A stretch of 48,389 bases of DNA from an uncultured Clostridia bacterium (GTDB lineage: Bacteria; Bacillota; Clostridia; Christensenellales; Borkfalkiaceae). Both the position numbers and the translations under genes were made by a program. Positions within the stretch are counted from its first letter, which is position 1. Each line of letters starts with the position of its first letter. The notes below the pieces were generated by a model. The model had not been told where the DNA came from. It did no database searches and saw only the letters and a program-made list of their open reading frames with translations. This document shows, in pieces, positions 1,880 through 48,389 of the stretch. The stretch spans positions 1 to 48,389 of the forward strand of contig CALVXB010000014.1 of assembly GCA_944368775.1 (NCBI GenBank). The letters run 5' to 3'.

Positions 1880-1923
1880 AAAACCCCGCGGCCAGCGCTT
1901 ATGCGTGCCCGCGGGGTTTTCTT
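1880..1923. terminator. Strong hairpin with A/T flanks, probable bidirectional terminator
   Basis: Arms AAAACCCCGCGG (1880-1891) and CCGCGGGGTTTT (1909-1920) pair perfectly. T-runs follow on both strands, so it could stop the small gene on + and parB on -. The same AACCCCGCGG module (H2) recurs in several repeat blocks of this window. Confidence 0.75.
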
Positions 1924-1969
1924 CTAATCGCAGAAATTTGTTTTGTCAGCTCAAAACAAATTCTCCGAG
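1921..1969 (-). repeat. H1 hairpin repeat, copy R1
   Basis: Minus-strand copy of the conserved hairpin: arms AATTTGTTTTG (1935-1945) and CAAAACAAATT (1952-1962) around a TCAGCT loop, with an outer CTCGGAG start at 1969. Oriented downstream of parB, 110 nt after its stop, and joined to the H2 hairpin at 1880-1923. Confidence 0.85.
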
Positions 1970-1981
1970 CTGCACGCGAAC

Positions 1982-2012
1982 GGCGCGCCTCATAAGGGCG
2001 CGCCTTTTGTTT
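1982..2012 (+). terminator. Intrinsic terminator
   Basis: GGCGCGCC (1982-1989) pairs with GGCGCGCC (1997-2004), loop TCATAAG, followed by TTTTGTTTG. Orientation fits termination of + strand transcripts before the convergent parB. Confidence 0.75.
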
Positions 2013-2078
2013 GTATGAAAGGCCGTGCAGCCTTCTTCTATTATTAAAATGTCGCGCGCGCGCTTTATAAGACGCGGC

Positions 2079-3011
2079 TCACTTGCGCGGCTCTTGCTCG
2101 GCAAGCTCGACGATCTCGCTGATGCGGTTGAGGTCGTCGGTGTTGTAGTAGTCGATGTAGATGCGCCCCTTTTTGTCGTTGCCGATGAGGGAGACTTTGG
2201 TTTTGAAGGCGTGGCGCATGCGCTCGACGAGGCCTTTGAGCTCGATGGAGACTTGCTGCTTCTTTTTTTCCTTTTTATCGGCGAGTTCGTCGGGGGTGGA
2301 GAAGTAGTCGCGCACGCTGCGCTCGATGTCGCGCACGGAGAGGCCGTCTTTGATGGCGTCTTGGGCGAGTTTGAGCTGGGCGTCTGCGGGCAGGGTGATG
2401 AGGGCGCGGGCGTGGCCTGCGCTGAGTTTGCCCGCCGCGACGAGGGGAATGACCTCGGCGGAGAGGGAGAGAAGGCGCAGCGTGTTGGTGACGGCGGGGC
2501 GCGACTTGCCGATGCGCTCGGCGAGCTCTTCTTGCGTGAGGTGGTACTCGTCCATCAGCTGCTTCATCGCGGTGGCGGCCTCGATGGGGTTGAGGTCCTC
2601 GCGCTGCAAGTTTTCGATGAGGGAGATCTCTTTGATCTGCCTGTCGTCGTACGCGCGCACGACGACGGGGATCTTGGTCTTGCCCGCGATGCGCGAGGCG
2701 CGGTACCGCCGCTCGCCCGCGATGATCATGTACTTGCCGTCTTGCATCTCGTTGACGACGATGGGCATGATCAACCCGTGCTTTTTGATGGAGTCTGCCA
2801 GCTCGTTGAGGGCGTCTTCGTCAAAATGCTTGCGCGGCTGGTTGGGGTTGGGGCGGATGAGGTCGATGTCCACTTCCGTCAGGTCTTTGATGTCCGCAGG
2901 CAGCGGCGCGGCGTCCTCCTGCGAAAATTTTGCGGCGTTGCCGTACGCTTCTTCTGTGTCGGAAAAGAGTGCGGACAGCCCCCTGCCCAATCCTCTCGGC
3001 GGTGTTTTCAT
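2079..3011 (-). CDS. parB: Chromosome-partitioning protein ParB (Spo0J)
   Basis: ParB binds parS sites, spreads as a CTP-dependent clamp and loads SMC; with ParA it segregates origins. The 310-residue product has the typical N-terminus (GLGRGLSALF, residues 7-16), the ParB/Srx CTPase domain with GERRYRA near residues 99-105, and a helix-turn-helix around 130-190 (LTQEELAERIGKSRPAV). The ATG at 3011 follows AGGAGGAGAAC. The gene is directly downstream of parA, 170 nt apart, in the usual parA-parB order, and its likely targets (parS-like sites) lie at 6.4-7.2 kb. A terminator and an H1 repeat follow the gene. Length is normal. Confidence 0.97.
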   Translation of the reverse strand: MKTPPRGLGRGLSALFSDTEEAYGNAAKFSQEDAAPLPADIKDLTEVDIDLIRPNPNQPRKHFDEDALNELADSIKKHGLIMPIVVNEMQDGKYMIIAGERRYRASRIAGKTKIPVVVRAYDDRQIKEISLIENLQREDLNPIEAATAMKQLMDEYHLTQEELAERIGKSRPAVTNTLRLLSLSAEVIPLVAAGKLSAGHARALITLPADAQLKLAQDAIKDGLSVRDIERSVRDYFSTPDELADKKEKKKQQVSIELKGLVERMRHAFKTKVSLIGNDKKGRIYIDYYNTDDLNRISEIVELAEQEPRK

Positions 3012-3181
3012 GTTCTCCTCCTATGATGCAGCCGCGGATGCGCGGCAAAATGCGGCTTTTTTGAAGGCGCTGCCGTGTGCGCGCTCTGCCCGTATGCGCG
3101 GCGGACGCCTGCGGCGCGGCCGCGCGGCCGAAAGCGCGGCAAACGTTTGCGGGTGAGCGCAGCGAACGCCCGTACGCGCGG

Positions 3182-3955
3182 TCACTGCTTTTTTTCTTCT
3201 CGGGCGAGGTACTCCTGCGTAAGCGCCTTGTAGGCGCGCGCGCCCGTGCACTTGGGATCGTGCAGCATGATGGGCTTGCCGTACGAGGACGCCTCGACCA
3301 GGCGCACGTTGCGCGGCACGACGATCTCGAACAGGCGGCGGGTGAAGAATTTTTTGATCTCGTCGGCGATCTGCTTGGAGATGAGCGCGCGGCTGTCGTA
3401 CATGGTCAGCACGACGCCGTCGACGTCGAGCGCGGGGTTGAGGTGCTGCTTGACGAGCGTGATCGAGTTCATCAGCTGCGACAGCCCTTCGAGCGCGTAG
3501 TACTCGCTCTGGATGGGGATGATGACGGAGTCTGCCGCGGCGAGCGCGTTGATGGTCAACAGCCCCAGCGAGGGCGGGCAGTCGATAAAGATGTAGTCGT
3601 AGTTGTCGCGCACCTCGGCGAGGGCGTTTTTGAGCACCTTTTCGCGGCTTTTATGGTAGACCAGCTCCACCTCCGCGCCGGCGAGGTCGATGTTGGAGGG
3701 GATGAGGTCGAGGTTGGGGATCTCGGTATGCACGATGTGCTCGGACGCCTTTTCGTCGTTGATGAGCACCTCGTACACCGACTTTTTGAGGGTGCTTTTG
3801 CTGATGCCCATGCCCGTCGTGGCGTTGCCCTGCGGGTCGATGTCGACCAGCAGCACCTTTTTGCCCGCGTCGGCGATGTACGCCGCCATGTTCACGCAGG
3901 TGGTCGTCTTGCCGACGCCCCCCTTTTGGTTGGAAAAAGAAACGATCTTGCCCAT
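3182..3955 (-). CDS. parA: Chromosome-partitioning ATPase ParA (Soj)
   Basis: ParA ATPase of 257 residues. It binds nucleoid DNA as an ATP dimer, is released by ParB-stimulated hydrolysis and in spore formers also influences DnaA. The deviant Walker A motif KGGVGKTT is at residues 11-18, VDIDPQGNAT follows at about 38-47, and FIDCPPSLG marks Walker B at roughly 120. The ATG at 3955 is preceded by GAGGTCA at suitable distance. The gene lies between ftsH and parB, all on the minus strand, so the three could be cotranscribed. The protein is short (no N-terminal HTH), which fits the chromosomal Soj type rather than the plasmid type. Confidence 0.97.
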   Translation of the reverse strand: MGKIVSFSNQKGGVGKTTTCVNMAAYIADAGKKVLLVDIDPQGNATTGMGISKSTLKKSVYEVLINDEKASEHIVHTEIPNLDLIPSNIDLAGAEVELVYHKSREKVLKNALAEVRDNYDYIFIDCPPSLGLLTINALAAADSVIIPIQSEYYALEGLSQLMNSITLVKQHLNPALDVDGVVLTMYDSRALISKQIADEIKKFFTRRLFEIVVPRNVRLVEASSYGKPIMLHDPKCTGARAYKALTQEYLAREEKKQ

Positions 3956-4073
3956 GATAATTGACCTCTTCTTTCGTCTCTCACACTATGCGGCTGCGGG
4001 GCGAGCCGCCCGTGCGGACGCCGCACCTTTCGGCCGCGGCGTACCCGCACGGCGGAACGTTGTTCGCGCGGCG

Positions 4074-10440: not shown

Positions 10441-11060
10441 TCGCGCAGAAAAAAAAAGCAAGACCGCGCCTTTGTGCCAGCGCTCGTCGTCGCTCAACAC
10501 CGCTGCGATTTTCGGGAACACTTTTATTAAAATAATTGAAAAAGCAAAAACCGCGCTTTTTGCTTTTTCCCCCAATTTGCCGTCAGGCTTATGAGGAAAG
10601 AGTGAATTTGCGGCATATAAACAGGGTTCCCAAAAAGTAACTCGCCGCGTTGCGGCGAGAGCTATAGCCCGCCGAACTTTTTGGGAAGAGGAGGAGCCGC
10701 CGCCAAACTGCCGCGCGGGCGGCCAACGGCTGCCCGCGGGCTAACGGCGGCGAGCGACGACGAAAGGTGTGCCCTTAAATATGCCGCAAAGAGAGAAAAC
10801 CCGCCGCAGAGCCGCCCCGATAGGGCTCCCAAAAAGTAACTCGCCGCGTTGCGGCGAGAGCTAAGCCCGCCGAACTTTTTGGGAAGAGGAGGAGACGCCG
10901 CCGAGCACGCCGCGCCTTTTGCAAAAAGCAAAAGGCGGGCAGGCGAAGGCGAGCGACGACGCGTGCAGCGAGGGAGAAAACGCTGCCACGCGCAGCGTGC
11001 GGCGGTGTCTCCCTCAAATCACGAAAATTTCTTTTGTCAGCTCAAAAGAAATTTTGTGAA
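10440..11060 (-). repeat. Composite hairpin-repeat block II with H1 copy R2
   Basis: A mosaic of palindromic modules read best on the minus strand: H1 at 11013-11060 (arms AAATTTCTTTTG / CAAAAGAAATTT), then an H2 module (GAGGGAGA ... TCTCCCTC), an AAAAGGC hairpin near 10915-10945, and two copies of a module with arms CCCAAAAAGT / ACTTTTTGGG (10628-10686 and 10828-10884). Modules like GGGCACACC and TTCACTCTTTCCTC also appear. The same parts recur in blocks at 21, 27, 33, 35 and 48 kb. No gene ends here; the block lies between rsmG and the DnaA boxes. Confidence 0.8.
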
Positions 11061-11072
11061 TAGGGTATATTT

Positions 11073-21265: not shown

Positions 21266-21288
21266 TTCATAAAAAGGAGGAGCCGTTT

Positions 21289-21492: not shown

Positions 21493-21509
21493 AACGCGAT
21501 AATTAAAAC

Positions 21510-21713: not shown

Positions 21714-21722
21714 TTTCAACGG

Positions 21723-28817: not shown

Positions 28818-28822
28818 CTGCC

Positions 28823-29905: not shown

Positions 29906-29929
29906 GACAAAATTACCTCAAGTCAGATT

Positions 29930-30556: not shown

Positions 30557-30557
30557 T

Positions 30558-31043
30558 TCAGTTTTTGGAGATGGACTTGATCAGCCCGCCCTTGTCGATG
30601 ATGTTCTGGATGAAGGGGGGGAAGGGCTCTGCCGTAAAGGTCCGGCCAGTCGTCTCGTCCACGATCACGCCCTTGGCGAGGTCGCAGGAGACGGTGTCGC
30701 CAGCCGAGATGGCCGCGACCGCCTCCGGGCACTCGAGGATGGGCAGCCCGATGTTGATGGAATTGCGGTAGAAGATGCGCGCGAAGGAGTTGGCGATGAC
30801 CAGCGCGATGCCGCTCGTCTTGATGGCGATGGGCGCGTGCTCGCGCGAGGACCCGCAGCCGAAGTTGTCGCCCGCGACCATGATGTCGCCCGGCTTCACC
30901 TTATGGACGAACTCCTTGTCGATGTCCTCCATGCAGTGCGCGGCCAGTTCGGTCGCGGAGGAGGTGTTCAGGTAGCGCGCGGGGATGATGACGTCGGTGT
31001 CGACGTCGTTGCCGTATTTGAAAACAGTTCCGCAAACTTTCAT
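30558..31043 (-). CDS. leuD: 3-isopropylmalate dehydratase small subunit
   Basis: LeuD pairs with LeuC to isomerise 2- to 3-isopropylmalate, and in the citramalate route citramalate to methylmalate. The 161-residue product is of the short, archaeal/clostridial type: [35 protein letters not shown] (58-71) and [15 protein letters not shown] 31043 follows AAGGAGATACGAGC. It is 12 nt from leuC. Confidence 0.96.
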
Positions 31044-31055
31044 GCTCGTATCTCC

Positions 31056-32315: not shown

Positions 32316-32397
32316 AAGTCTACCGTACTCCTTTTTTTGGTTTTGCCGCCCGCTTTCGCCGCAAAGTTGCGCGCGCGGGCGCCGTTTATTTGACTTC

Positions 32398-32427
32398 ATT
32401 ATAGCACAAGTGCTATACTTTTGTAAA
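32398..32427 (-). promoter_or_regulatory. leuC promoter with an overlapping palindromic operator
   Basis: Minus strand: TTTACA (32422-32427), 18-nt spacer, TATAAT (32398-32403). The inverted repeat TATAGCAC-AA-GTGCTATA (32400-32417) fills the spacer and overlaps the -10 box. As the LysR-type gene lies divergently, it is the probable regulator; binding here would be expected to repress, or to act with a second upstream site. Confidence 0.75.
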
Positions 32428-32506
32428 CGATTTATAAAATAGATAATTTTAATTACTATAATCAGAATATCGAATAGCCCGCCGCGGCGGGCGAGGGGAG
32501 GCAGCC

Positions 32507-33379
32507 ATGAACTCGGAGGGGATCCGCACCTTTTTGATGCTCTCAAAACTGAAGAATTTCACCCGCACGGCCGAGCGCATGTACGTCGCGCAGTCTACGG
32601 TCACCAACCGCATCGCCGAGCTCGAAAACGAGACCGGCCGCAAGCTGTTCGCGCGGCGGCAGGGGGGCGTCGAGCTGACGGAGGAGGGGCAGCTGTTTTT
32701 AAGCTACGCCCAGCGCATCAGCGACCTCGAGGACAGCTTCATCCGCGAGGTCAACGCCGCTGCCCGCTACGACAAGGCGCTGCGCGTCGGCTGCATCAAC
32801 GCCGTGTACGAAAGCGGCCTCTACCCCGCCCTCTCCGGCTTCTTTCGCGCCCATACCGACGTCGCCCTCAAAGTCGTGCTCGGCCACTCGGCAGACCTCT
32901 TGCAGATGCTGCAAGAGGGGCTCATCGACGTCGCCTTCACCTACCTCCCCCTCAAAAAGGCGGGCTTCGTCAGCCGCCGCTTCTCCTCCGACCGCCTCGT
33001 GCTCGTCGCCGCGCCCGCCGTCAACGCCTACGCCGGGGGCATCCGCAAGGCGCAGCTTCTCGAGTGCGAGTACCTGATGTGCAACTTCGCCTTTGGCGAC
33101 GCAGGCGAGTTCGTGCGCTCCCTCTTTCCGCCCCGCCACGCCTTCCGTTTTGAAGTAGATAACAGCGGCAAAGTCGCGCAGTACCTGCTCGACGGCCTCG
33201 GCTACAGCTTTCTGCCCTATAAGATGGTAGAAGAATATGTGCAGGCGGGCAGGCTGCAGGTGGTGCGCCCGCTCGACTTCGCCGTGCCCGAGCTTGTCAG
33301 CTACTGCGCGTACCGGAGGGGCGATGCTTTGGCAGAGGAACTAAGGCTCGGAGAATTTGTCACGGGCTCGGAGAAATAG
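32507..33379 (+). CDS. LysR-family transcriptional regulator, likely of leu genes
   Basis: A 290-residue LTTR. N-terminal winged [51 protein letters not shown] (about 4-51). The effector-binding domain runs from about 90 to 285. It is divergent from leuC with a shared 190-nt intergenic region holding the palindrome TATAGCAC-AA-GTGCTATA. Control of leuCDB is inferred from this layout. ATG 32507 follows GAGGGGAGGCAGCC. The last codons (GSEK, TAG) lie within the H1 hairpin at 33367-33415. Confidence 0.93.
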
Positions 33380-33655
33380 TTTTAAGCTGTTAAAACTATT
33401 TCTTCCGATTTTAAGACAACCCCGCGGGCGCGCGCAAGCGCTGGCCGCGGGGTTTTCCTCGCCGCCGCGCGCGTCGTCGCTCGCCTTTGCTTGCCCGCCT
33501 TTTGCTTATTGGCAAAAGGCGCGGCTTGCACGGCGGCTTCACCTTTCCCTGTGCAGCGCCCATGCGCTGTAAAGGGAAAAAGGCAAAAGCGTGGTTTTGC
33601 CTTTTTCAATCATTTTTATAAAAATGGTTCCCGAAAGTCATAGCTGGTCGAAAAC
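33367..33655 (+). repeat. Hairpin-repeat block VI with H1 copy L4
   Basis: H1 at 33367-33415 (arms GAAATAGTTTTAA / TTAAAACTATTTC) overlaps the LysR stop codon. It is followed by H2 (AACCCCGCGG / CCGCGGGGTT), a CGTCGTCGCTCGCC module, an AAAAGGC hairpin, the CAGCGCCCATGCGCTG module within TTTCCC/GGGAAA arms and a GGCAAAAGCGTGGTTTTGCC hairpin. No inverted H1 closes it; the BspA-like gene promoter follows. Confidence 0.8.
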
Positions 33656-33669
33656 GCGACCCTGTTTAC

Positions 33670-33699
33670 TTGGTCGGCGGCGCGGGCAGATGGTATAAT
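33670..33699 (+). promoter_or_regulatory. Promoter of the BspA-like gene, extended -10
   Basis: TATAAT at 33694-33699 preceded by ATGG (extended -10), weak -35 TTGGTC at 33670-33675. The ATGGTATAATA string is shared with the promoters at 1453 and 10150. Confidence 0.6.
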
Positions 33700-33751
33700 A
33701 GAATGACGGGCGCGCGCGGCGCGGCCGTGCAAAAAGGTCAGGAGTTCATAC

Positions 33752-35215
33752 ATGAGCAAAAAAATTATTTTGGCGCTGTCGGCGGCGCTGGCCATCGCCC
33801 TCTGCGCCGCGGTCTTGGCGGCGTGCGGCGGGCACCCGCACGCGCTGACGGCGCACGCGGCGCAAGCGGCGGGCTGCACCGAGGCGGGCAATTCCGCCTA
33901 TTGGTCGTGCGAGGCGTGCGGCAAGTACTTTGCCGACGCGGATGGCAAGACGGAGATCGAGGAGGGCAGCTGGGTGCTCGAGCCGACCGGCCACACCTTT
34001 GCCGAGACCTGGTCGTTCGACGAAACGGCGCATTGGCACGCGGCGACGTGCGGGCACGGCGAGGCCGCCGAAAGAGAGCCGCACACCTTTGACGGGGAAA
34101 TGTGCACCGTCTGCGAATATCGGGCGGACAGTACGGAGGGGCTCGCCTTTCTCCCGTCGGATGACGGGCAGTCGTACGTCGTCGCCGGCATCGGCACGGC
34201 GGAGGGGGCGGATATCGTCATCCCCGCGCAGTACCGCGAGCTGCCCGTCACGGGCATCGTCGATTCGGCCTTTCAGGGGAATGCCGCCATCGAAAGCGTC
34301 TTTATCCCGAACAGCGTCACCAACCTCGGCTGGTATGCGTTTGCCGATTGCACCGCGCTGCGAAGCGTCACCATGGGCAGCGGCGTCACGCTCGTCGGGG
34401 CGGCGGCGTTCGGCGGCTGCACCTCCCTGCGCGAGGTCGCGCTGGGCGAAAACGTCGCCACCCTCGGCGCAAACGCCTTTGAGGGCTGCACCGCGCTGCA
34501 AAACATCTCCCTCCCCGCAAGCCTTGCGCGCATCGAAACGTATGTATTCCGCGACTGCACCGCGCTCGAGCGCATCGCCATCCCGCGCGGCGCTGCGGAG
34601 GTCATGGAGGGCGCCTTCTACAACTGCACCGCCCTCGAAAGCGCCGACCTCGGCGGCGCGGAAGAGATCGCCGCGGGCGTCTTTTACGGCTGCGCCGCTT
34701 TGGAGAGCCTCTCCCTGCCCGCCTCCGTCGCGCGCGTGGGCGACTACGCCTTTTTCGGCTGCGCTTCGTTGAAGGAGATCGCCGTGCCCGCAGGCGCGGC
34801 CTCCGTCGGGCAGTACGCGTTTGCCGACTGCACCGCGCTTGTGAGCGCTTCCCTCGCGGACACCGTCAAAAGCATCGGAACGGGCGCCTTTTCCGGCTGC
34901 GCCGCGCTCGCATCGGTCGACCTCGGCGGCGCGGAAGAGATGGGGCTGTACGCCTTCGAGGGCTGCTCTTCGCTGACCCAAGTCGTCCTCCCCGCAGGCC
35001 TTACGCGCGTTGAGGAGGGGGCGTTTTCCGATTGTACCGCGCTCGAAGCCGTCACCATGGGCGGCGGCGTCACCGAGATCGGGTTCATGGCGTTTTACAA
35101 CTGCACCTCGCTGGCGCACATCCGCTTCGAGGGCACGCAGGCGCAGTGGAACGCCGTCGTAAAGGACCCCGATTGGGCGCTCGGCGCGGGGGAGATAGAA
35201 ATCGTATATGCGTGA
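33752..35215 (+). CDS. BspA-type leucine-rich-repeat lipoprotein
   Basis: A 487-residue predicted surface lipoprotein. A signal peptide ends in the lipobox LAAC (C about residue 25). A small domain with Cys and His/Trp follows (WSCEACGKYF, HWHAATCGHG, CTVCEY). From about residue 155 to 480 come about 13 LRR_5 (BspA) repeats of 22-24 residues with the pattern IxxxAFxGCTALxxVxLxxx. Such proteins often bind host or bacterial partners at the surface, which is family knowledge. ATG 33752 follows AGGAGTTCATAC. The stop is immediately followed by H1 repeat L5. Single-gene unit. Confidence 0.9.
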   Translation: MSKKIILALSAALAIALCAAVLAACGGHPHALTAHAAQAAGCTEAGNSAYWSCEACGKYFADADGKTEIEEGSWVLEPTGHTFAETWSFDETAHWHAATCGHGEAAEREPHTFDGEMCTVCEYRADSTEGLAFLPSDDGQSYVVAGIGTAEGADIVIPAQYRELPVTGIVDSAFQGNAAIESVFIPNSVTNLGWYAFADCTALRSVTMGSGVTLVGAAAFGGCTSLREVALGENVATLGANAFEGCTALQNISLPASLARIETYVFRDCTALERIAIPRGAAEVMEGAFYNCTALESADLGGAEEIAAGVFYGCAALESLSLPASVARVGDYAFFGCASLKEIAVPAGAASVGQYAFADCTALVSASLADTVKSIGTGAFSGCAALASVDLGGAEEMGLYAFEGCSSLTQVVLPAGLTRVEEGAFSDCTALEAVTMGGGVTEIGFMAFYNCTSLAHIRFEGTQAQWNAVVKDPDWALGAGEIEIVYA

Positions 35216-35850
35216 CTCGGAGATTTCTCGGCAGGCTGCTGCCTGCGAAATCTTCCGATTTTAAGACAACCCCGCGGGCGCGCGCAAGCGCTGTCCGCGG
35301 GGTTTTCCTCGCCGCACGATATTGAGGGGCACGCTTTAAATAAATCGTGCGGCTTCACCTTTCCCTGTGCAGCGCCCATGCGCTGTACGGGGAAAAAGCA
35401 AAAAGTGTCATTTTTGCTTTTTCAATTATTTTCATTAAAATATTCGCGCAAGCAGAACCGCGCTTCTGCGTTAGCGCACCCCCATTTGCGCGATAGCTCG
35501 TCGTCGCTCGCCTTCGCTTGCCTGCCTTTTGCTAAAAGCAAAAGGCACGGCTTGCACGGCGGCTTCTCCTCTTCCCAAAAATCTCGCGACGCTTCGCACC
35601 GCTGCGATTTTCGGGAACCCTTTTTATTCTTAAAATAATTGCGCAAGCAAAGTCGCGCCTTTGCGCCAGCGCACTCAATTTGCCGTTAGGCTTACGAGGA
35701 AAGAGTGAATTTGCGGCATTTATTAAATAGAGTGCCCCTAAAAATGCCGCAAAGAGAGAAAAACCACCGCAGAGCCGCATAGCGGCGAACGGTGGGTTGT
35801 CTCTCAAATCACGAAAATTTCTTTTGTCAGCTCAAAAGAAATTTTGTGAA
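35216..35850. repeat. Complete composite hairpin-repeat element VII (H1 copies L5 and R4)
   Basis: A 635-bp element bounded by H1 copy L5 (35216-35265; arms GATTTCTCGGCAG / CTGCCTGCGAAATC, GCTG tip) and inverted H1 copy R4 (35813-35850). In between: H2, H3 (GCACGAT arms with GAGGGGCACGC), TTTCCCTGTGCAGCGCCCATG module, GCAAAAAGTGTCATTTTTGC hairpin, CGTCGTCGCTCGCC and AAAAGGC modules, TCCCAAAAAT/ATTTTCGGGA module, the GCCGTTAGGC module, inverted H3 (GGGGCAC) and inverted H2 (GAGAGA ... TCTCTC). No gene is seen inside. Confidence 0.85.
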
Positions 35851-35856
35851 CCCCTT

Positions 35857-35874
35857 TGTGGATTCTGTGGATAA
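35857..35874. other. DnaA-box pair away from the origin
   Basis: TGTGGATTC (35857-35865) directly followed by a perfect TGTGGATAA (35866-35874), 24 kb from oriC. Could be a regulatory or DnaA-titrating site, or chance. Confidence 0.4.
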
Positions 35875-35900
35875 ACTTGTATAAAAATTGTCTTAAATGT

Positions 35901-35934
35901 AAAATCGGCGCTTAAAAGGCGCCGATTTTGTACG
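35901..35934 (+). terminator. Hairpin terminator
   Basis: AAAATCGGCGC (35901-35911) pairs with GCGCCGATTTT (35919-35929); T's continue at 35935-35939. Confidence 0.7.
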
Positions 35935-35982
35935 TTTTTGGGGAATAGCGGCGTTTATATCCTCCGTTCTGCGCCGAACAGA

Positions 35983-36011
35983 TTGACAAGTACGCACAAT
36001 TACTATATAAT
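35983..36011 (+). promoter_or_regulatory. Promoter of the GT2 gene
   Basis: TTGACA at 35983-35988, 17-nt spacer, TATAAT at 36006-36011, an almost ideal promoter. Confidence 0.88.
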
Positions 36012-36080
36012 TCATTCAAAACGATCAAACGCGGTTTTTGCGCCGCCCTGCGGCCGCGCGCAAACCGCTGCGGAGGTACT

Positions 36081-37079
36081 TTGCATACTATATCAGTTAT
36101 CGTTCCCGTCTATAATGTAGAAAAATATCTGCGCCGCTGTTTGGACAGCATCTTATCGCAGGAGGGCGCAGACGCGGAGATCATCTGCGTGAACGACGGT
36201 TCGACGGACGCGAGCCCCGCGATCCTGGCAGAATACGCGGCAGAACACCCCGATCTGCGCATACTGACGCAGCCGAACCGCGGACTTGGCGCGGCACGCA
36301 ACGCGGGGCTGGATGCCGCCGAGGGCGAATATGTCATCTTTGTCGACAGCGACGATTTTCTCGAGCCCGGCTACTTTGCCGCCGCCGTGCAGAAGTTAGA
36401 AAATGACGGCGCCGATCTCGTCATGTTCAACCCGATCATCTACGACCACCGTACGGGGCAGACGCATCCGTACCGCAGCATGATCGACTTTTACCGGTTC
36501 AGCTGTGCGGGCGGCTTCCCCGTGGAGGAGCATCCGCTGCTGCTCTCCTTCAACGGCTGCTGGGATAAGGTGTGCCGCCGCTCGCTGCTCACAGACAACA
36601 ACATCCGCTTCCCCTGCCCGCGCATCTATGAAGACGTCACCTTCGGCATCTTCGCGCAGGTGTGCGCGCGCAAGATCTGCGTGCACAAGGAGGGCTTTTA
36701 CAATTACCGCAAAAACACGGGCAGCTCGATCACCGACCGCGAGATCAACAACAAGCAATTCCGCGGCGATTTTTTGCAGAATCTGCGCGAGGTGACCGCC
36801 TTTCTGCGCGGCCGCGGCTGCAGCGGCGCGGTGTGGTCGGGCGTGATGCTCTATGCCCTGCGCGACGGAATGTTCCACCTCTGCTATACCCGCCCGCGCG
36901 CGGAGTTTGTCCGCTTTTTCGGGCAGCTGCGCGCCCTCTTTTCGGAAGAAGAGGTGCGCACCGCCCTCGTTTGGGGTTCGGAAAAGATCGATTGGTTTGC
37001 CGATGTGCTGCTGCGCGGCGATGTGCGCGCCTGCAAGCGCGGTATTGTGCGCGCGCTGAACGCGCCGCTCGGCATTTGA
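36081..37079 (+). CDS. Family 2 glycosyltransferase
   Basis: A 332-residue GT-A enzyme that probably adds sugars to cell-surface glycans. ISVIVPVYNVEKYLRRCLDSIL opens the fold, NDGSTD is at 38-43 and the metal-binding DSDD at 89-92. The start is a TTG at 36081, four nt after GGAGG; no in-frame ATG nearby preserves the fold's first strand. The gene has its own promoter. A 20-bp tandem repeat spans its stop codon, so the NAPLGI C-terminus is the repeated unit. The neighbouring opposite-strand gene is also a glycosyltransferase, suggesting a shared surface-glycan role. Confidence 0.9.
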   Translation: MHTISVIVPVYNVEKYLRRCLDSILSQEGADAEIICVNDGSTDASPAILAEYAAEHPDLRILTQPNRGLGAARNAGLDAAEGEYVIFVDSDDFLEPGYFAAAVQKLENDGADLVMFNPIIYDHRTGQTHPYRSMIDFYRFSCAGGFPVEEHPLLLSFNGCWDKVCRRSLLTDNNIRFPCPRIYEDVTFGIFAQVCARKICVHKEGFYNYRKNTGSSITDREINNKQFRGDFLQNLREVTAFLRGRGCSGAVWSGVMLYALRDGMFHLCYTRPRAEFVRFFGQLRALFSEEEVRTALVWGSEKIDWFADVLLRGDVRACKRGIVRALNAPLGI

Positions 37080-37112
37080 ACGCGCCGCTCGGCATTTGAA
37101 CGCGCCGCCCGG
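37058..37112 (+). repeat. 20-bp tandem repeat across the GT2 stop codon
   Basis: Two full copies and a partial third of GAACGCGCCGCTCGGCATTT, 20-nt period. The stop codon lies in the first copy, so repeat gain or loss leaves the protein end unchanged. Confidence 0.9.
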
Positions 37113-37140
37113 CTCGTGTATGCCGCCGCAAACAGAAAAA

Positions 37141-37168
37141 AGCAAGGCAGTTGCCTTGCTTTTTTTTG
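37141..37168. terminator. Intrinsic terminator between convergent glycosyltransferases
   Basis: AGCAAGGCA (37141-37149) pairs with TGCCTTGCT (37152-37160), followed by eight T's; A's precede it (37136-37140), so it may work in both directions. Confidence 0.9.
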
Positions 37169-37202
37169 ATGGCCGATGTCCCGCTGCGGCGGGTGGGGGC
37201 GG

Positions 37203-39092
37203 TCAGTGCCGCCGCACGATAAAAGAATACAGTTTTTTGGCGAGGGCGCGGCGGCGGGTGCCTGCGGGGCACAGCCGCAGCACGATGCGGCGCAGCAGGC
37301 TGCCCTGCGGGCGGGGCTTCGACTGCTTTTCGGCGCGCAGCGTGCAGCCGGCAGCCCGCTCATAATAGGGGGTCTTGCGGAAGTACTCCCAAAAGAGGAA
37401 GGCGTACTCGTTGTCCGGGTACAGCCAAGGCTTTTCGCAGCCGGCAAAGTGCAGGATGCGGATATGGTCTTTCGCGCGCAGGTACGCTTCGAGGTAGGGC
37501 TTGGGCGCAAACGAGCGGCTGTATCCGCGGTAGCTGTCGTCGGGGTCGCCAAAAAAGTTCCAGCCGCTGTCGAGGTAGAGGATCTTGCCCTCGCAGAGTA
37601 TATTCAACAGATCTTGATCCTGAAAGCGGAAATTGCCCTGCTGGGCAAAGTCCAGCAGGTATTTTGCTGAAAAATCCCTGCGCATGGCGGCGGTATCGAT
37701 GAGCAGCACGCCTGCGTTGATGAGCGTAAAGATATTGCGGAAGCGGAATTGCTTATAGTATTCGAGCATTTCTTTGCTGAACCCGTTTACGTTGCCCGCG
37801 TGGCAGATGTCGATCGCGCCGGCGATATAGTTGCCGCCGAGGTCTGTGTCGTACAGCTCGGCTATATCTGTCAGCACGACGAGGTCGCTGTCGAGGTAGA
37901 GGATCTTGTTATAGCGGGGGAAGTGGTCGGGTATGATCAGCCGATAGTACGTCTCTTTGGTGATGGTCGCGCTCTCGTACAGGGTATAGTCGTCGAACAG
38001 GGGCTCCGGGTTCAAAAAGCGGACCGAAACGTTGGCGCGCCCGCGCGCGAGGAAGGAGAGGCGCATACGGTCGTCTTGCGTGAGGTCGTTGTGCAAGATC
38101 ACGACGTCGTAATTGTGCTGCGGGGTGATGTGCTCGAGCATCGATCGCAGCGCCGTCGCGGTGAACATCGCGTATTTGCCGTTGGTAGCAAAAAACACGG
38201 GCACGTTATTCTCTGCAAAGGCGGGTGCGAGGTCCGGCAGGGGATCGGTATTGTCGATCATCAAAATGTTCAGGTTGCGGGCGGGGCAGGGCTCGCGCTC
38301 GGCAATGGCGGTGTAAAAGATGCCGAGCAGCCGCTCGCCGAGGTGCCCCGGCGTGCGCATCGCCTCCGAATTGTAGTGCAGCGCCTCCATGTCGCGCGCC
38401 TCGTAAAAGCGGCGCAGCAGCCCGAACAGCCACGCGCTGTAGCGGCGGAAGAGCTGCCGCTTCATAAAAAACATATTGCCGAGGTACAGCTTGTTTCCGC
38501 TCAAAAACTTTTTGGCGGCGGGCAGGTAGTCGGGCTCGTACTGCCCGATCAGGCGCACGATCGTGTCGAGGTCCTCAATGTGCAGCTTTTCGGCGCACGC
38601 ATATTGGCGGTAGATGCTCACGTCGTAGGTAAACGGCTGCGGCAGCACGATATCGCAGCCGTGCAGCGCGGCGCGGATGGTTGCGGGGTCGTCCAGCCCG
38701 TGCAGCCGCGCCGTCCGCTTGCTCAGATATTTCGCGTGCAAAATGCTTTCGCCCGCCCCCGCGGGCGCGCTCTGCAAAAAGGAAAACAGCCTGCGGTAGT
38801 GGCCGAACCCGTAAATGTCGGCCTCCTCGTACTTCCATGCCCAATATTGGGTCAAAAGTTCGCAGTATTCGTTGGCGTGTGCCGCCATAAAGCGGTCCTC
38901 TTCGGTGCCGTTTTGCAAAAATGCGATCAGGTCGGCCTGCCGTACCGGCCGCACGATCTCGTTTTCGACGGTCATGCAGGGCTTGTGGCAGGAGAGATAA
39001 AACCGAATTTTTTTAGTGGCGGGCGCCTCTTGCCGCAGCGGGGCGGCGGGCGCGGCCTTGTCCGCATGGACTGCCGAATGATTTTTACCCAT
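37203..39092 (-). CDS. DUF4422 - family 8 glycosyltransferase fusion protein
   Basis: A 629-residue two-domain enzyme. Residues 28-270 match DUF4422 (FYLSCHKPCM, YCELLTQYWAWKYEEADIYG, FGHYRRLF at 96-103). Residues 295-560 are a GT8 galactosyltransferase-like domain with FFATNGKYAMF, YYRLIIPDHFP and the DxD motif in YLDSDLVVLTDIAELYD (DSD 401-403), then NAGVLLID. The basic tail may lie at the membrane. It probably transfers two sugars in a cell-wall or capsule glycan. ATG 39092 is preceded by CGGAGGTATT; the 34-codon longer frame lacks an SD. Own promoter at 39145-39173. Confidence 0.88.
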   Translation of the reverse strand: MGKNHSAVHADKAAPAAPLRQEAPATKKIRFYLSCHKPCMTVENEIVRPVRQADLIAFLQNGTEEDRFMAAHANEYCELLTQYWAWKYEEADIYGFGHYRRLFSFLQSAPAGAGESILHAKYLSKRTARLHGLDDPATIRAALHGCDIVLPQPFTYDVSIYRQYACAEKLHIEDLDTIVRLIGQYEPDYLPAAKKFLSGNKLYLGNMFFMKRQLFRRYSAWLFGLLRRFYEARDMEALHYNSEAMRTPGHLGERLLGIFYTAIAEREPCPARNLNILMIDNTDPLPDLAPAFAENNVPVFFATNGKYAMFTATALRSMLEHITPQHNYDVVILHNDLTQDDRMRLSFLARGRANVSVRFLNPEPLFDDYTLYESATITKETYYRLIIPDHFPRYNKILYLDSDLVVLTDIAELYDTDLGGNYIAGAIDICHAGNVNGFSKEMLEYYKQFRFRNIFTLINAGVLLIDTAAMRRDFSAKYLLDFAQQGNFRFQDQDLLNILCEGKILYLDSGWNFFGDPDDSYRGYSRSFAPKPYLEAYLRAKDHIRILHFAGCEKPWLYPDNEYAFLFWEYFRKTPYYERAAGCTLRAEKQSKPRPQGSLLRRIVLRLCPAGTRRRALAKKLYSFIVRRH

Positions 39093-39144
39093 AATACCTC
39101 CGGTATGCCGCACACTTGCGGCGCAATTCTCGTAAGCTCCACAC

Positions 39145-39173
39145 ATTATAGCAGACAAGTGCGTTTGTTGCAA
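39145..39173 (-). promoter_or_regulatory. Promoter of the DUF4422-GT8 gene
   Basis: Minus strand: TTGCAA at 39168-39173, 17-nt spacer, TATAAT at 39145-39150. Confidence 0.7.
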
Positions 39174-39212
39174 GAGAAAAGCATTGTCAACCAAGTGAAA
39201 GTTGGCAGAAAA

Positions 39213-39316
39213 GAGAGAAAACCCGCTGCCGAGCTGCTTGCATAAGCGGTGAACAGCGGGTCGTTTCTCAAATTCGGAAGATTTCGCAGGCGTCAGCTCG
39301 CCGAGAAATCTCCGAG
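39213..39316 (-). repeat. Hairpin-repeat block VIII with H1 copy R5
   Basis: On the minus strand, 10 nt after the cimA stop: H1 (39267-39316; outer CTCGGAG, arms GATTTCTCGGCGAG / CGCCTGCGAAATC) and H2 (GAGAGAAAACCCGCTG ... CAGCGGGT ... TTTCTC). The upstream promoter of the glycosyltransferase gene directly abuts it. Confidence 0.8.
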
Positions 39317-39326
39317 CCTTTCGTCA

Positions 39327-40904
39327 TCACGGCGAGATCTTCGCGAGCCTTCTCATCAAAGCATAATCGATCGAGTCTGTCAGCGCGATCCAGCTCGCCT
39401 CGATCACGTCGTCGGACACGCCGACGGTCGTCCAGCCGTCTGCGCCGCCCGCCGAGGTGATCAGCACGCGCACCTTGGCGGCGGTCGCCTTGTCCGAGTC
39501 GAGCACGCGCACCTTAAAGTCGACCAACGACATGCGCGCGATCTCGGGGTAAAAGTCGGAAAGGGCTGCGCGCAGCGCAAGGTCCATCGCGTGCACGGGG
39601 CCTTCGCCGTCCGCCGCCGCGATCTTCGTCACCCCGCCCACACGGATCTTCACGATCGCCGAGGCGACCTTCCCCTCGATGGCGGGCTGCTCGCTGATGA
39701 TCTTGTAGCTGATCAGATCGAAGGAGTTTTTGTACTTGCCGAGGATCTTTTCCACCAGCAGCACGAAGCTCGCCTCCGCCGCCTCGTATTGGTAGCCGGC
39801 CAGCGCGCGGTCTTTGAGGGCGGATACGATCTTCCCCATCTCCGCGCCGTTTTTATCGAGGGTGGGGAAGTAGTTTTTCAGCTTGTCGTAGATGGCGCTC
39901 TTTCCCGAAATTTCAGACAGCAAAAACTTGCGCTTGTTGCCGATGGCCTCGGGGTCGACGTGCTCGAAGGAGGAAGAATATTTGAGCACCCCGTCCGCGT
40001 GCATGCCCGCCTTGTGCGCAAAGGCGTTCATCCCCACATACGGCTGGTTGGGCCGGATGGCGGCGTTGGCCGTCTCCGCGATCTCCATCGCGCAGCCGTA
40101 CATCTGCTTCAAATTTTCGGGCGGGATGCACTCGTAGCCCCGCTTAAGCTGCAAGTTGCAGATGATCGAGCACAAATTCGCGTTGCCGCACCGCTCGCCG
40201 AAGCCGAGCAGCGTGCCCTGCACCTGCCGCGCGCCCGCAGCCACCGCCGCGATAGAGTCTGCCACGGCGAGGTCGCCGTCGTTGTGGCAGTGGATGGCGA
40301 CGACGACGTCCGGGAAGCGCTCGCAAACGGCGCGCGTGATGCGCTCCGCCTCGTCGGGGAAGATGCCGCCGTTGGTGTCGCACAGACACAGCGTGTGCGC
40401 GCCCGCATTTGCCGCGCTCTCGAGCGCGCGCATCGCGTAATCTGCATCCGCCTTGTACCCGTCGAAGAAGTGCTCCGCGTCAAATACCACCTTTTTGCCG
40501 TGCTCGGTCAAAAAGCGCACGCTCTCGCCGATCATGGCGAGGTTCTCTTCGGGCGTCGCTTTCAGCACGTCCGTCACATGGCGGATGTGGCTCTTGCCGA
40601 AGATGGCGACGTACTCTGTGCCCGCCGCCAGCAGCGACTTCAAATTGCCGTCCTCGGCGGGTTCGACGCCCTTGCGGCGGGTCGAGCCGAAGGCGACGAT
40701 CTTGGCGTGGCGCAGCTTGAGCCCGGCGATGCGCTGAAAAAACTGCATCTCCGCGGGGTTGGAGAAGGGGTTGCCCGCCTCGATAAAGTCGACGCCCAGC
40801 GCGTCGAGCGCGTGGATGACCTTGAGTTTGTCGTCGACGGAAAAGGAAATGTTTGCGCCCTGCGCCCCGTCGCGCAGGGTAGAATCGAAAATTTGTAACT
40901 TCAT
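39327..40904 (-). CDS. cimA: Citramalate synthase
   Basis: CimA condenses pyruvate with acetyl-CoA to (R)-citramalate, a threonine-independent entry to isoleucine. The 525-residue product has IFDSTLRDGAQG (5-16), the catalytic/metal IHCHNDGDLAVA (about 205-216) and GFGERCGNANL, typical of the HMGL-like family, plus a C-terminal LeuA-dimer regulatory domain from about 400. The opening DSTLRDGAQG and overall length fit CimA rather than LeuA. ATG 40904 follows GGGAG; this SD borders the end of repeat element IX. It is the last gene after ilvB-ilvN-ilvD. Confidence 0.92.
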   Translation of the reverse strand: MKLQIFDSTLRDGAQGANISFSVDDKLKVIHALDALGVDFIEAGNPFSNPAEMQFFQRIAGLKLRHAKIVAFGSTRRKGVEPAEDGNLKSLLAAGTEYVAIFGKSHIRHVTDVLKATPEENLAMIGESVRFLTEHGKKVVFDAEHFFDGYKADADYAMRALESAANAGAHTLCLCDTNGGIFPDEAERITRAVCERFPDVVVAIHCHNDGDLAVADSIAAVAAGARQVQGTLLGFGERCGNANLCSIICNLQLKRGYECIPPENLKQMYGCAMEIAETANAAIRPNQPYVGMNAFAHKAGMHADGVLKYSSSFEHVDPEAIGNKRKFLLSEISGKSAIYDKLKNYFPTLDKNGAEMGKIVSALKDRALAGYQYEAAEASFVLLVEKILGKYKNSFDLISYKIISEQPAIEGKVASAIVKIRVGGVTKIAAADGEGPVHAMDLALRAALSDFYPEIARMSLVDFKVRVLDSDKATAAKVRVLITSAGGADGWTTVGVSDDVIEASWIALTDSIDYALMRRLAKISP

Positions 40905-40913
40905 AAAAACTCC

Positions 40914-41056
40914 CTCGGAGATTTCTCGGCAGGCTGCTGCCTGCGAAATCTTCCGATTTGAAGACAACCCCGCGGGCACGCGCGGCGCGCTGGCCGCGGG
41001 GTTGTCTCTCAAAATCGTAGAAATTTGTTTTGACAGCTCAAAACAAATTTCACGAG
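40914..41056. repeat. Minimal complete hairpin-repeat element IX (H1 copies L6 and R6)
   Basis: A 143-bp element made of H1 (40914-40963; GATTTCTCGGCAG / CTGCC...GAAATC), H2 (GAAGACAACCCCGCGG / CCGCGGGGTTGTCTCTC) and an inverted H1 (41008-41056; AAATTTGTTTTGA / TCAAAACAAATTT). It begins CTCGGAG and ends CACGAG. It lies between ilvD and cimA, and the ilvD stop codon (41050-41052) is inside its right end. Confidence 0.9.
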
Positions 41057-42714
41057 CGAAGCGTCGCTCCGCGGCTTGCCGAAGTCACCTGCGCGCGGTA
41101 GCGCTTGAGGTAGCCGGACACCGGCTTTTCGATGGGGGTGAAGGCGGCGAGGCGGGCGGCGAGCTCTTCGTCGCTGATGCGCAGGTCGATGCGTCCCGCC
41201 TCGATGTCGATGTCGATGATGTCGCCCTCTTTCACCACGCCGATGGGGCCGCCCGCAGCCGCTTCGGGGCAGACGTGCCCGATCGCCGCGCCGCGCGTCG
41301 CGCCCGAAAATCTGCCGTCGGTGATCAGCGCGACGTCCGCGCCCAGGCCCGCGCCCACGATGGCGGAGGTGGGGGAGAGCATCTCGCGCATGCCGGGGCC
41401 GCCTTTGGGGCCCTCGTAGCGGATGACCACGACGTCCCCCTTGACGATCTTGCCCGTGGAGATGGCTTCCATCGCCGCCTCTTCGCTGTCAAACACGCGG
41501 GCAGGGCCGCTGTGCTGCAGCATGGCGGGGTCTACGGCGCTCTTTTTGACGACCGCGCCCTCCGCCGCCAGGTTGCCCTTCAAAATAGCGAGCCCCCCCG
41601 TCGGGGAATAGGGCGCGCTCATCGGGCGGATGACCTGCGCGTCCAGCACGCGCGCGTTTTGGGTGCGCTCGCCCTGCGTCACGCCCGAAACGGTCATGGC
41701 GGAGCCGTCAAACAGCCCCGCGTCGATGAGCCGGCGGATGACGGCGGAGATGCCGCCCGCCTCGTTGAGGTCCTCGATGTAGTGCTCGCCCGCGGGCGCC
41801 AGCTTGCAGATGTGCGGCACCTTGGCGCTCACTTCGTTGAATGTATCGATGGAAAAATCTTCCTGCGGCATGCCCATCTCGCTCGCGAGCGCCAAAAGGT
41901 GCAGCACGCTGTTCGACGACGCGCCGATGGCGTTGTCGACGGCCACCGCGTTCTTGATCGCCGTCGGGGTGATGATGCGGGAGGGGCGCAGGTCCTGCTC
42001 GATCGCGCGCATCACCGCCTTGCCCGTCTCTTTGGCGAGCATCAGGCGGCGGGAGTACACCATCGGGATGGTGCCGTTGCCGGGCAGGGATATGCCCAGC
42101 GCCTCCGTCAGGCAGTTGAGGCTGTTCGCCGTGAACATACCCGAGCAGGAGCCGCAGGTCGGGCAGGCCGAGCACTCGTACTCGTGCAGCTCGGCTGCGT
42201 CGATCTTGCCCGCGTTGTACGCGCCCACCGCCTCGAACATGGAGGAGAGGGACAGCCGCCTGCCGTGCATGCGCCCCGCCAGCATGGGCCCGCCCGAAAC
42301 GAATGCGCAGGGCAAGTCGAGCCGCACCGCCGCCATCAGCATGCCGGGCACGATCTTGTCGCAGTTGCCCACAAACACCACGCCCGAAAAGGCGTGCGCC
42401 CGCGCCAAAATTTCGGCGCTGTCGGCGATCACCTCGCGCGAGGGCAGCGAGTAGCGCATGCCCGCGTGCCCCATCGCGATGCCGTCGCACACGCCGATGG
42501 AGGGCACCACCACGGGCATGCCGCCCGCGGCCAGCACCCCTTCTTTGACGGCCTCCGCGACCTTGTCGAGGTACATATGCCCCGGGATCACTTCGCTCTG
42601 CGCGCACACGATGCCGACGATCGGCTTCTGCATCTCGTCGTCCGTCCAGCCCAGCGCGCGCATCAGCGAGCGCTGCGAGGACATCGCCGTTCCTTCCGAA
42701 AAGATATTTTTCAT
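41050..42714 (-). CDS. ilvD: Dihydroxy-acid dehydratase
   Basis: IlvD converts dihydroxy acids to 2-keto acids in valine, isoleucine and leucine synthesis and carries an Fe-S cluster. The 554-residue product has GIVCAQSEVIPGH, GVCDGIAMGHAGMRYSLPSRE, VGNCDKIVPGM (cluster Cys), SACPTCGSCSGMFTANS (cluster Cys) and GPKGGPGMREML. ATG 42714 has a weak AGGT. The last codons and stop (TLRS, TGA) are within H1 copy R6. It follows ilvN on the minus strand; ilvC is absent from the window. Confidence 0.97.
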   Translation of the reverse strand: MKNIFSEGTAMSSQRSLMRALGWTDDEMQKPIVGIVCAQSEVIPGHMYLDKVAEAVKEGVLAAGGMPVVVPSIGVCDGIAMGHAGMRYSLPSREVIADSAEILARAHAFSGVVFVGNCDKIVPGMLMAAVRLDLPCAFVSGGPMLAGRMHGRRLSLSSMFEAVGAYNAGKIDAAELHEYECSACPTCGSCSGMFTANSLNCLTEALGISLPGNGTIPMVYSRRLMLAKETGKAVMRAIEQDLRPSRIITPTAIKNAVAVDNAIGASSNSVLHLLALASEMGMPQEDFSIDTFNEVSAKVPHICKLAPAGEHYIEDLNEAGGISAVIRRLIDAGLFDGSAMTVSGVTQGERTQNARVLDAQVIRPMSAPYSPTGGLAILKGNLAAEGAVVKKSAVDPAMLQHSGPARVFDSEEAAMEAISTGKIVKGDVVVIRYEGPKGGPGMREMLSPTSAIVGAGLGADVALITDGRFSGATRGAAIGHVCPEAAAGGPIGVVKEGDIIDIDIEAGRIDLRISDEELAARLAAFTPIEKPVSGYLKRYRAQVTSASRGATLRS

Positions 42715-45740: not shown

Positions 45741-45802
45741 AACAGTGCCCGGCGCGCTTTGCTTTTGTGCAGAGCGCCGCCCGCACGGCATAACTTCATC
45801 AC

Positions 45803-45878
45803 GGCCCCATGGTCAAGCGGTCTAAGACATCGCCCTTTCACGGCGGTAACCCGGGTTCGAGTCCCGGTGGGGTCACCA
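45803..45878 (+). tRNA. tRNA-Glu (TTC)
   Basis: A 76-nt cloverleaf: acceptor GGCCCCA / TGGGGTC, anticodon stem-loop TCGCC-CTTTCAC-GGCGG, T-arm CCGGGTTCGAGTCCCGG, encoded CCA. Decayed copies follow at 46020 and 46143. Confidence 0.96.
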
Positions 45879-45879
45879 C

Positions 45880-45923
45880 GCAAAACGCGCAGAGCATTCA
45901 GCTCTGCGCGTTTTGCGTGGCCG
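45880..45923 (+). terminator. Long hairpin after tRNA-Glu
   Basis: CGCAAAACGCGCAGAGC pairs with GCTCTGCGCGTTTTGCG around ATTCA. The T-run lies inside the 3' arm rather than after it, so it may be a processing or termination hairpin. Confidence 0.55.
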
Positions 45924-46019
45924 CTTCAACGAAGCGGCGAACCCGGAGGGTTCGTGCTCGAAGAGCTTTGCGGCGCAGCCGCAAGCCCCCGGTGGGGTCA
46001 CCAACTTTCAATTTCATAC

Positions 46020-46126
46020 GGCCCCATGGTCAAGCGGCCGAAGGCTCGCCCTTTTACGAGTGGCAGCCTGCGGTTCGTGCTCGAAGAGCTTTGCGGCGCA
46101 GCCGCAAGCCCCCGGTGGGGTCACCA
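46020..46126 (+). pseudogene. Decayed tRNA-Glu copy
   Basis: Starts GGCCCCATGGTCAAGCGG and ends GGTGGGGTCACCA as in tRNA-Glu. The anticodon loop reads CTTTTAC, the anticodon stem does not pair properly, and the T-arm is replaced by an unrelated 50-nt segment (107 nt in all). It is unlikely to be a working tRNA. Confidence 0.8.
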
Positions 46127-46142
46127 ACTTTCAATTTCATAC

Positions 46143-46185
46143 GGCCCCATGGTCAAGCGGCCGAAGGCTCGCCCTTTCACGCACG
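46143..46185 (+). pseudogene. Truncated tRNA-Glu copy
   Basis: The 5' half only: GGCCCCATGGTCAAGCGG followed by a CTTTCAC anticodon loop, then sequence diverges before the sirtuin stop codon. Confidence 0.75.
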
Positions 46186-48009: not shown

Positions 48010-48056
48010 ACAGTCACCTGCGGCGGGGTTTACGTTTTGCCTGTGCCCCCGCCCGC

Positions 48057-48111
48057 AAAAAAAAGGAGCCAACGGACCAACCATAAAAGCCTGCGGCTGG
48101 CCATTGACTCC
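48057..48111 (-). promoter_or_regulatory. Attenuator-like terminator in the pnuC leader
   Basis: On the minus strand, GGAGTCAATGGCCAGCC pairs with GTTGGTCCGTTGGCTCC (with G-U pairs), followed by eight T's (A's at 48057-48064). It lies between the pnuC promoter and start codon, so transcription must read through it to express pnuC. Confidence 0.75.
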
Positions 48112-48113
48112 GA

Positions 48114-48142
48114 GCATGCCCGCCCCGGCGGGCGGGGCATGC
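48114..48142 (-). promoter_or_regulatory. Upstream hairpin of the pnuC leader
   Basis: GCATGCCCCGCCC and GGGGCGGGCATGC form a strong stem directly before the terminator hairpin. Together they could form a riboswitch or attenuator; no known class is recognised. Confidence 0.55.
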
Positions 48143-48165
48143 AAGTTTTTCGTTCAGTTGCCCCT

Positions 48166-48194
48166 ATCATACCAAAAGGCCGCGCCATTGTCAA
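48166..48194 (-). promoter_or_regulatory. pnuC promoter
   Basis: Minus strand: TTGACA at 48189-48194, 17-nt spacer, TATGAT at 48166-48171; leader about 150 nt. Confidence 0.88.
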
Positions 48195-48212
48195 CCGTTT
48201 GTACAGTATAGG

Positions 48213-48389
48213 CTCGGAGAATTTCTTTTGAGCTGACAAAAGAAATTCTTCCGATTTGAGGGGAAACCCGAGCGGTTTTCCCCTCAGCGGCGCGCTTTTT
48301 AAGGGCACGCCTTTTCGTCGTCGCTCGCCGCCGTTAGCCCGCGGGCAGCCGTTGGCCGCCCGCGCGGCAGTTTGGCGGCGGCTCCTCCT
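48213..48389 (+). repeat. Hairpin-repeat block XI with H1 copy L7 (runs off the window)
   Basis: H1 at 48213-48260 (arms GAATTTCTTTTGA / TCAAAAGAAATTC type, GCTG tip), H2 GAGGGGAAACCC / GGTTTTCCCCTC, H3 with GCGCGC...AAGGGCACGCC, then CGTCGTCGCTCGCC and GCCGCCCGCGCGGC modules that match block II (10690-10780) in the opposite direction. It continues beyond the window. Confidence 0.8.

Follow-up and report, generated by a model that had tools for sequence, protein, structure and literature searches.

The 48,389-nt contig CALVXB010000014.1 of an uncultured Clostridia bacterium of the Borkfalkiaceae (assembly GCA_944368775.1), analyzed over its whole length (hereafter the window), encodes feoB, a Na+/H+ exchanger gene, sepF, a LysR-type gene, an LRR_5 gene, a cimA-like gene, and ilvD, and the edges of all of these are occupied by copies of a repeated hairpin termed H1. 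The initial annotation had listed 13 such hairpins, and all of them were found at their sites, seven on the plus strand and six on the minus strand, the copy placed at 35813 in fact spanning 35802–35851. H1 opens a non-coding unit of about 225 bp composed of five hairpins (H1, H2, H3, H4, and H5) followed by an AT-rich end; the unit layout was read by eye from the sequence, while covariance models cover H1 and H3. The five-hairpin unit, its placement at gene edges, and the swapping of H1 types at fixed sites go beyond what had been noticed before.

A complete unit, H1 to H5, lies on the plus strand at 21049–21282 (ends approximate, by eye) and fills the spacer between feoB and the ribosome-binding site of the next gene. 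Its H1 (21049–21098) overlaps the 3' end of feoB, whose stop codon (21066–21068) falls inside the hairpin, and its H3 is located at 21146–21189. Another plus-strand H1 (21539–21588) begins 47 nt past a short predicted gene, with an H3 at 21601–21645. The exchanger gene is followed immediately after its stop codon by H1 27086–27135 (plus) and H3 27161–27204 (plus), which face inward toward H3 27536–27577 and H1 27621–27670 (both minus), the latter 6 nt past the sepF stop codon. The LysR-type gene terminates inside H1 33366–33415 (plus). Immediately after the LRR_5 stop codon are H1 35215–35265, H3 35311–35353, and H5 35392–35423 (GAAAAAGCAAAAA/TTTTTGCTTTTTC), all on the plus strand, and their inward-facing partner consists of H3 35710–35753 and H1 35802–35851 on the minus strand. 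The cimA-like gene (39327–40904, minus; label from sequence) is bracketed by H1 39267–39317 (minus), 10 nt past its stop codon, and H1 40913–40963 (plus), which ends 9 nt ahead of its predicted start codon; ilvD terminates inside H1 41008–41057 (minus). The remaining copies are at 1921–1970 (minus), followed by an H2-like hairpin (~1880–1917) with no H3 found, at 11012–11061 (minus), and at 48212–48261 (plus) near the contig end.

H1 is built from a base stem (TCNN/NNGA), a variable main stem, and a GCTG tip, with a single pyrimidine left unpaired on the 3' arm where the two stems meet. The tip is invariant in 13/13 window copies, as originally described, although other parts of that description need amendment: the 5' end is CTC in some copies and TTC in others, the bulge is on the 3' arm but comprises a single base (C or T) rather than one or two, and the proposed 3' GATTTGAG is degenerate (e.g., GATTAGAAG at 1921), its GAG part reading as the start of H2. 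Pooling the own-genome set with the relatives' 69 distinct copies gave 127 distinct sequences, of which 110 had the exact anatomy (bulge C in 58, T in 52), the exceptions being 11 with an inexact base stem and six of other forms. Covariation was judged by pair counts against shuffled alignments. In the alignment of the 13 window copies (A1), standard pairs fill 94% of cells (74% in shuffles), and both partners vary in 14 of the 18 pairs, compared to 8.9 in shuffles. Among the 69 relatives' copies, whose alignment was fitted to the covariance model, 92% of cells are paired (67% in shuffles) and the covariation score is 0.65 (0.19 in shuffles); two-sided change was seen in 16 of the 18 pairs, a number that 108 of 500 shuffles also reach. 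The paired arm changes reported earlier are thus borne out in both sets, and with them the suggestion of selection or copying acting on structure. Wholesale swaps of H1 type at fixed sites explain part of this covariation.

H3 has a stem of 10–12 bp with a loop around AAGGGCAC. Its covariance model (R3) returned 44 rows in the own genome, two of which were the opposite strand of others, leaving 42 places, and each of them is preceded by a same-strand H1, no more than 60 nt away in 39 cases and 154–183 nt away in the other three. Over 37 genomes of the genus, H1 and H3 counts correlate closely (rho 0.95), although these counts are limited by the roughly 100 candidates scored per genome. The exceptions are two relatives with two and one weak H3 but no H1 (G004 and G005) and one with three H1 but no H3 (G006). 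The units stand singly, in tandem, or as inward-facing pairs; among 18 pairs of neighboring H1s less than 1 kb apart in the own genome, 12 face inward, five are tandem, and one faces outward. A terminator consensus scan of window positions 21001–41000 found 49 matches compared to 27.8 expected, flagging H2 at 21117 and H5 at 33576 and 35392 and, on the minus strand, at 27496 and 35658.

A second repeat family (CGTCGTCGCTCGCC... CTTCCCAAAAA...GGGAACCCT) occurs inside the units, several times in the loop of H2 or H3. Its sites in the window are 10689–10765, 33471–33498, 35498–35574, and 48313–48389; a stretch of 77 bp at 10689 recurs unchanged, in inverted orientation, at the contig end (48389). 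By eye, the unit of H1 11012–11061 extends to ~10510 and contains this family.

The covariance model built from the 13 copies (R1) gave the many genomic matches that the initial annotation had named as support for its proposal, with 65 places in the own genome at an expectation value (E) of 3.5e-5 or better. The other 23 of 88 rows were weak (E 0.004 or worse), most of them the same hairpins matched on the other strand. The figure of 65 is a minimum, as scoring covered 150 of the 605 first-look candidates. The window copies score 64–77 bits, but they built the model, and independent support therefore comes from the 52 further copies outside the window. H1 matches occur in 33 of 37 genomes of the genus and in none of 24 genomes of other families. 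A scan of the order (297 genomes, 20 candidates scored in each) gave matches in both genus members shown and in four sister-genus genomes, and with one to three weak matches in each of these four, H1 is not quite confined to the genus. The exact H1 pattern was found in 48 stretches of a one-genome-per-species collection, titled Candidatus Borkfalkia or Clostridia/Firmicutes, and the host genus is likely Candidatus Borkfalkia.

Genes were predicted by a simple codon-usage gene caller made for this analysis. In the own genome, the 5' end of 31 of 65 H1s falls at −24 to +11 nt relative to the 3' end of a predicted gene, another seven H1s lie 6–12 nt ahead of a predicted start, and two H1s have a gene within 20 nt on their inner side. 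Among the 60 copies with both neighbors called, 36 have an outer gene edge within −25 to +15 nt, compared to 10.5% under random placement in the same gaps. In seven of the 31 gene-end cases, including feoB, LysR, and ilvD in the window, the gene enters H1 and takes its stop codon there. A depleted zone beside genes was also considered, as no copy lies 12–46 nt from a predicted 3' end, but the gap control gave 3/60 at 16–46 nt compared to 7.9% expected, and so no depletion is claimed. The only two copies with a gene within 20 nt on the inner side (C4:158929–158975 and C4:64692–64740) are single H1s with non-matching base stems, which look as though an entire element had shrunk to a single hybrid hairpin.

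Comparison of the own genome (G000) with relatives of the genus (other G numbers) indicates how the units change. The feoB site is empty in G018 and G031, whereas one unit fills the gap to the ribosome-binding site in G000, where the last codons, stop codon, and native spacer have been replaced; by eye, the protein ends in ...GRK-VGSENLF in G000, ...GRK-KIATVRS in G018, and ...GRK-KRLLARN in G031. Judging from these three sequences, the feoB unit is a derived insertion in the G000 line. Among 30 loci at the ilvD 3' end, fetched from 36 genomes with ilvD, 12 have H1, 17 do not, and one is cut by a contig end. The filled ilvD spacers printed whole (G013, G034, G014, G009, G000, and G018) have H1 at the ilvD end, and that of G034 holds two complete units head to head. 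On the ilvD tree at least five gains or losses of H1 are needed, three of them forced by well-supported branches. Between G000 and G018, the H1 types differ at both ends at ilvD and at C4 90073–90672. The LysR site carries two H1s separated by an LRR gene in G000, but a single hybrid H1 in G018. The proposal that every new unit lands in an older H1, whose outer half stays behind, found no support: windows on the outer side that matched an H1 half at 12 of 13 positions numbered 8/140 compared to 8/138 in far controls and 6/140 in shuffles, so that such matches are no commoner outside H1 than in controls, despite striking single cases (33366, 39267, L012, and L068).

The stems themselves argue for DNA rather than RNA. 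Omitting rows with a longer nested stem (14/69 relatives, 16/59 own), the innermost tip pair, and the bulge-adjacent pair, where the bulge shifts the model register and many A-C and G-U cells appear, main-stem cells of regular H1s are Watson-Crick in 646/652 cases in relatives and 508/516 in the own genome (1154/1168 in total), with six G-U and four A-C in all. The H3 main stems, counted, with mismatches allowed, in the 118 distinct rows among the 150 best of 168 matches, are Watson-Crick in 1151/1166 cells, with six G-U and one A-C; the sequences behind R3 were chosen with perfect stems, and the 100% pairing of that set is by construction. Combined, about 99% of 2334 cells are Watson-Crick, with 12 G-U (0.5%) and five A-C, a small excess. 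The four base-stem pairs of H1, tallied separately, are Watson-Crick in 217/220 and 164/172 cells, with two G-U. RNA stems usually hold far more G-U, and the tolerance expected of a structured RNA is not seen in these main stems. Moreover, an Rfam scan of the window identified rRNA and tRNA only, and in two unit stretches all matches were far below the gathering score, which agrees with the earlier remark that no described family with this tip and arrangement was known. The initial annotation had left the choice between RNA and single-stranded DNA open; its view that the paired changes point to selection or copying acting on structure stands, while the scarcity of G-U disfavors its RNA alternative.

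An element of the 3' untranslated region, kept by selection on the transcript as a terminator, a stabilizer, or a ribosome-stalling hairpin, would account for the sense-direction placement of 31 H1s at gene 3' ends and for the terminator-like flags on H2 and H5. In E. coli, repetitive extragenic palindromic (REP) sequences within 15 nt of a stop codon stall ribosomes (excerpts of PMC12306157), and the C4 75849 unit looks near-unchanged between two species. However, the seven H1s ahead of predicted starts would be transcribed as the complement, and 17 of 29 readable ilvD orthologues are without H1. An RNA family was rejected as the leading explanation on the near-absence of G-U and the lack of an Rfam match, and we regard it as rather unlikely.

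We therefore favor DNA: with a probability of roughly 0.6, H1 is the gene-facing end of a five-hairpin unit that is non-autonomous mobile DNA, whose folded strand would be recognized by a putative enzyme. That the bulge is constant and confined to one side of stems that are otherwise perfect is consistent with a single DNA strand being recognized in its folded state. The best description of the unit is a non-autonomous palindromic mobile element similar to REPs and to miniature inverted-repeat transposable elements (MITEs), with a new architecture and gene-edge placement; inward pairs carry H1 at both ends, but no transposase-bearing element was seen, although no systematic search for one was made. 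Under this description, units would spread by transposition, H1 would be recognized as a single strand, and insertion would be accompanied or soon followed by replacement of the old spacer. With T-rich DNA behind them, H2 or H5 may act as a terminator for the upstream gene, a service which would explain why insertions are tolerated. A more specific proposal, which we advance tentatively and as less likely than not, is a new kind of mobile DNA encoded by structure, whose unit is defined by five hairpins of fixed loops and free stems instead of by sequence. Such a unit would take the spacer from stop codon to next ribosome-binding site, supply the gene with another stop codon and a terminator, and be exchanged for other units at its fixed edge via the bulged single-stranded H1.

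Several observations weigh against mobility of this kind. No transposase tied to the H1 element was found, and Y1 transposase counts do not track H1 copy number over 37 genomes (rho −0.12). The copies are clustered, with 43 of 65 on contigs C4, C6, and C14 (18% of the own genome) and none listed on C1 (200 kb), a pattern that simple transposition leaves unexplained. At feoB the native sequence was lost, and consequently no target-site duplication is readable; the exchanger gene is no clear case, as its tail is shorter in G000 than in G018 yet equally short in G029, which lacks the element. The ilvD tree does not separate gains from losses, and presence or absence there may reflect losses. At C4 81676–82524 the right H1 differs between G000 and G018, but the left H1 is of the same type. 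The C4 75849 unit is, by eye, near-identical in these two genomes, within a stretch 96% identical overall, which could indicate function or recent exchange. In addition, the compared genomes are draft assemblies in many contigs.

Matching arms could alternatively arise if palindromes are corrected, through template switching or through gene conversion among copies, with neither an enzyme nor selection acting on the hairpin. The nearly perfect stems, the wholesale differences of H1 type at fixed sites, and the H1s with non-matching base stems are compatible with such a process. It would, however, erase the one-base bulge kept in 110 of 127 sequences, and neither the lineage-specific feoB unit, which requires an insertion step, nor the joining of H1 and H3 in 42/42 places agrees with it, so that correction without further agents appears unlikely.

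The closest comparison for a mobile H1 unit is with REPs and bacterial interspersed mosaic elements (BIMEs) served by TnpA-REP, the REP-associated tyrosine transposase (RAYT), which are likewise high-copy intergenic palindromes with a bulged stem and inverted dimers, some within 15 nt of stop codons. Excerpts of PMC3733652 and PMC8266576 describe bulged hairpins, inverted dimers, and sites downstream of genes for REPs. H1 shares the high copy number and imperfect stem (65 copies, bulge in 110/127) and the BIME-like inverted dimers (12 of 18 neighbor pairs). On the other hand, a GTAG or CGTC tag is absent by inspection, the conserved ends being (C/T)TC and GATT, and no cognate Y1 transposase gene flanked by the repeat was found in the 13 Y1 loci examined. 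Unlike REPs, H1 is the first of five hairpins in a unit, is strongly placed at gene edges, and has almost no G-T pairs, which are often seen in GTAG REP stems (excerpts of PMC3733652). Matches to Y1 transposases were obtained in 23 of the 40 genus genomes, and a classical REP or BIME mobilized by a RAYT or an IS200/IS605 Y1 transposase would make use of them; however, none of the 13 Y1 loci given of 20 fetched has H1, and at a Y1 gene on contig C16 the adjoining hairpin has, by eye, a sequence other than H1. The Y1 transposase was rejected as driver because of the absence of H1 from these 13 loci and the missing correlation, and a classical REP is quite unlikely. As the tag and transposase tests fail, H1 is taken to work like a REP or MITE without being classed as a REP.

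A site that recombines in folded form, as the integron attC does, and exchanges spacers or genes is very improbable despite the gene-end position of a hairpin with an unpaired base in one arm and despite the hybrid H1 at LysR in G018, which by eye joins a left and a right arm, as the next gene after ilvD is unchanged where readable and the H1 element is repeated non-coding DNA.

The preferred mobile unit also resembles other systems in part. The IS200/IS605 end hairpins, such as that of IS608, share an unpaired stem base with H1, and the order of stem and bulge in IS608 resembles that of H1. The H1 ends, in contrast, stand in inverted pairs with no transposase gene inside. The IS608 transposase contacts the unpaired stem base T17 (excerpts of PMC8266576). 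Hairpin elements of sponge mitochondrial DNA and of Allomyces are mobile-looking intergenic modules that differ between close relatives, but those of sponges belong to organelle DNA, and neither a position at stop codons nor a conserved bulge of one base comes up in the excerpts of PMC2800124. The H1 unit is also akin to the MITE-like repeat units (RU) of enterobacteria, from which it differs by conserved loops with freely changing paired stems; terminal inverted repeats with a target duplication could not be demonstrated for it. ERIC is a name for such units. RU repeats are 100–170 bp, non-autonomous, and intergenic (excerpts of PMC2759123 and PMC2229807). Among the matches listed, literature on ribosome stalling, hairpin elements, and Christensenellales repeats contained no description of the H1 element, and literature naming Borkfalkia had no title on repeats.

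If the H1 unit is indeed mobile, a gut-bacterial genus rewrites its gene borders with transposon-like DNA recognized by shape, and a second, independent case of palindromes at stop codons would stand beside REPs. It would offer a natural test of whether stop-codon placement reflects target choice or selection, as well as a lead to a hairpin-specific enzyme inserting DNA at gene ends. It would also be a warning that strong covariation in bacterial repeats need not indicate RNA.

Two further repeats lie in the window. Upstream of the 16S rRNA gene (minus strand), positions 890–1343 contain four tandem repeats of about 125 bp, with minus-strand boxes that by eye resemble TTGACA and TATGAT, which are likely tandem rRNA promoters. 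At 45801–46181, two 110-bp copies that are 99% alike and have a tRNA-Glu-like start not called by ARAGORN adjoin a called tRNA-Glu.

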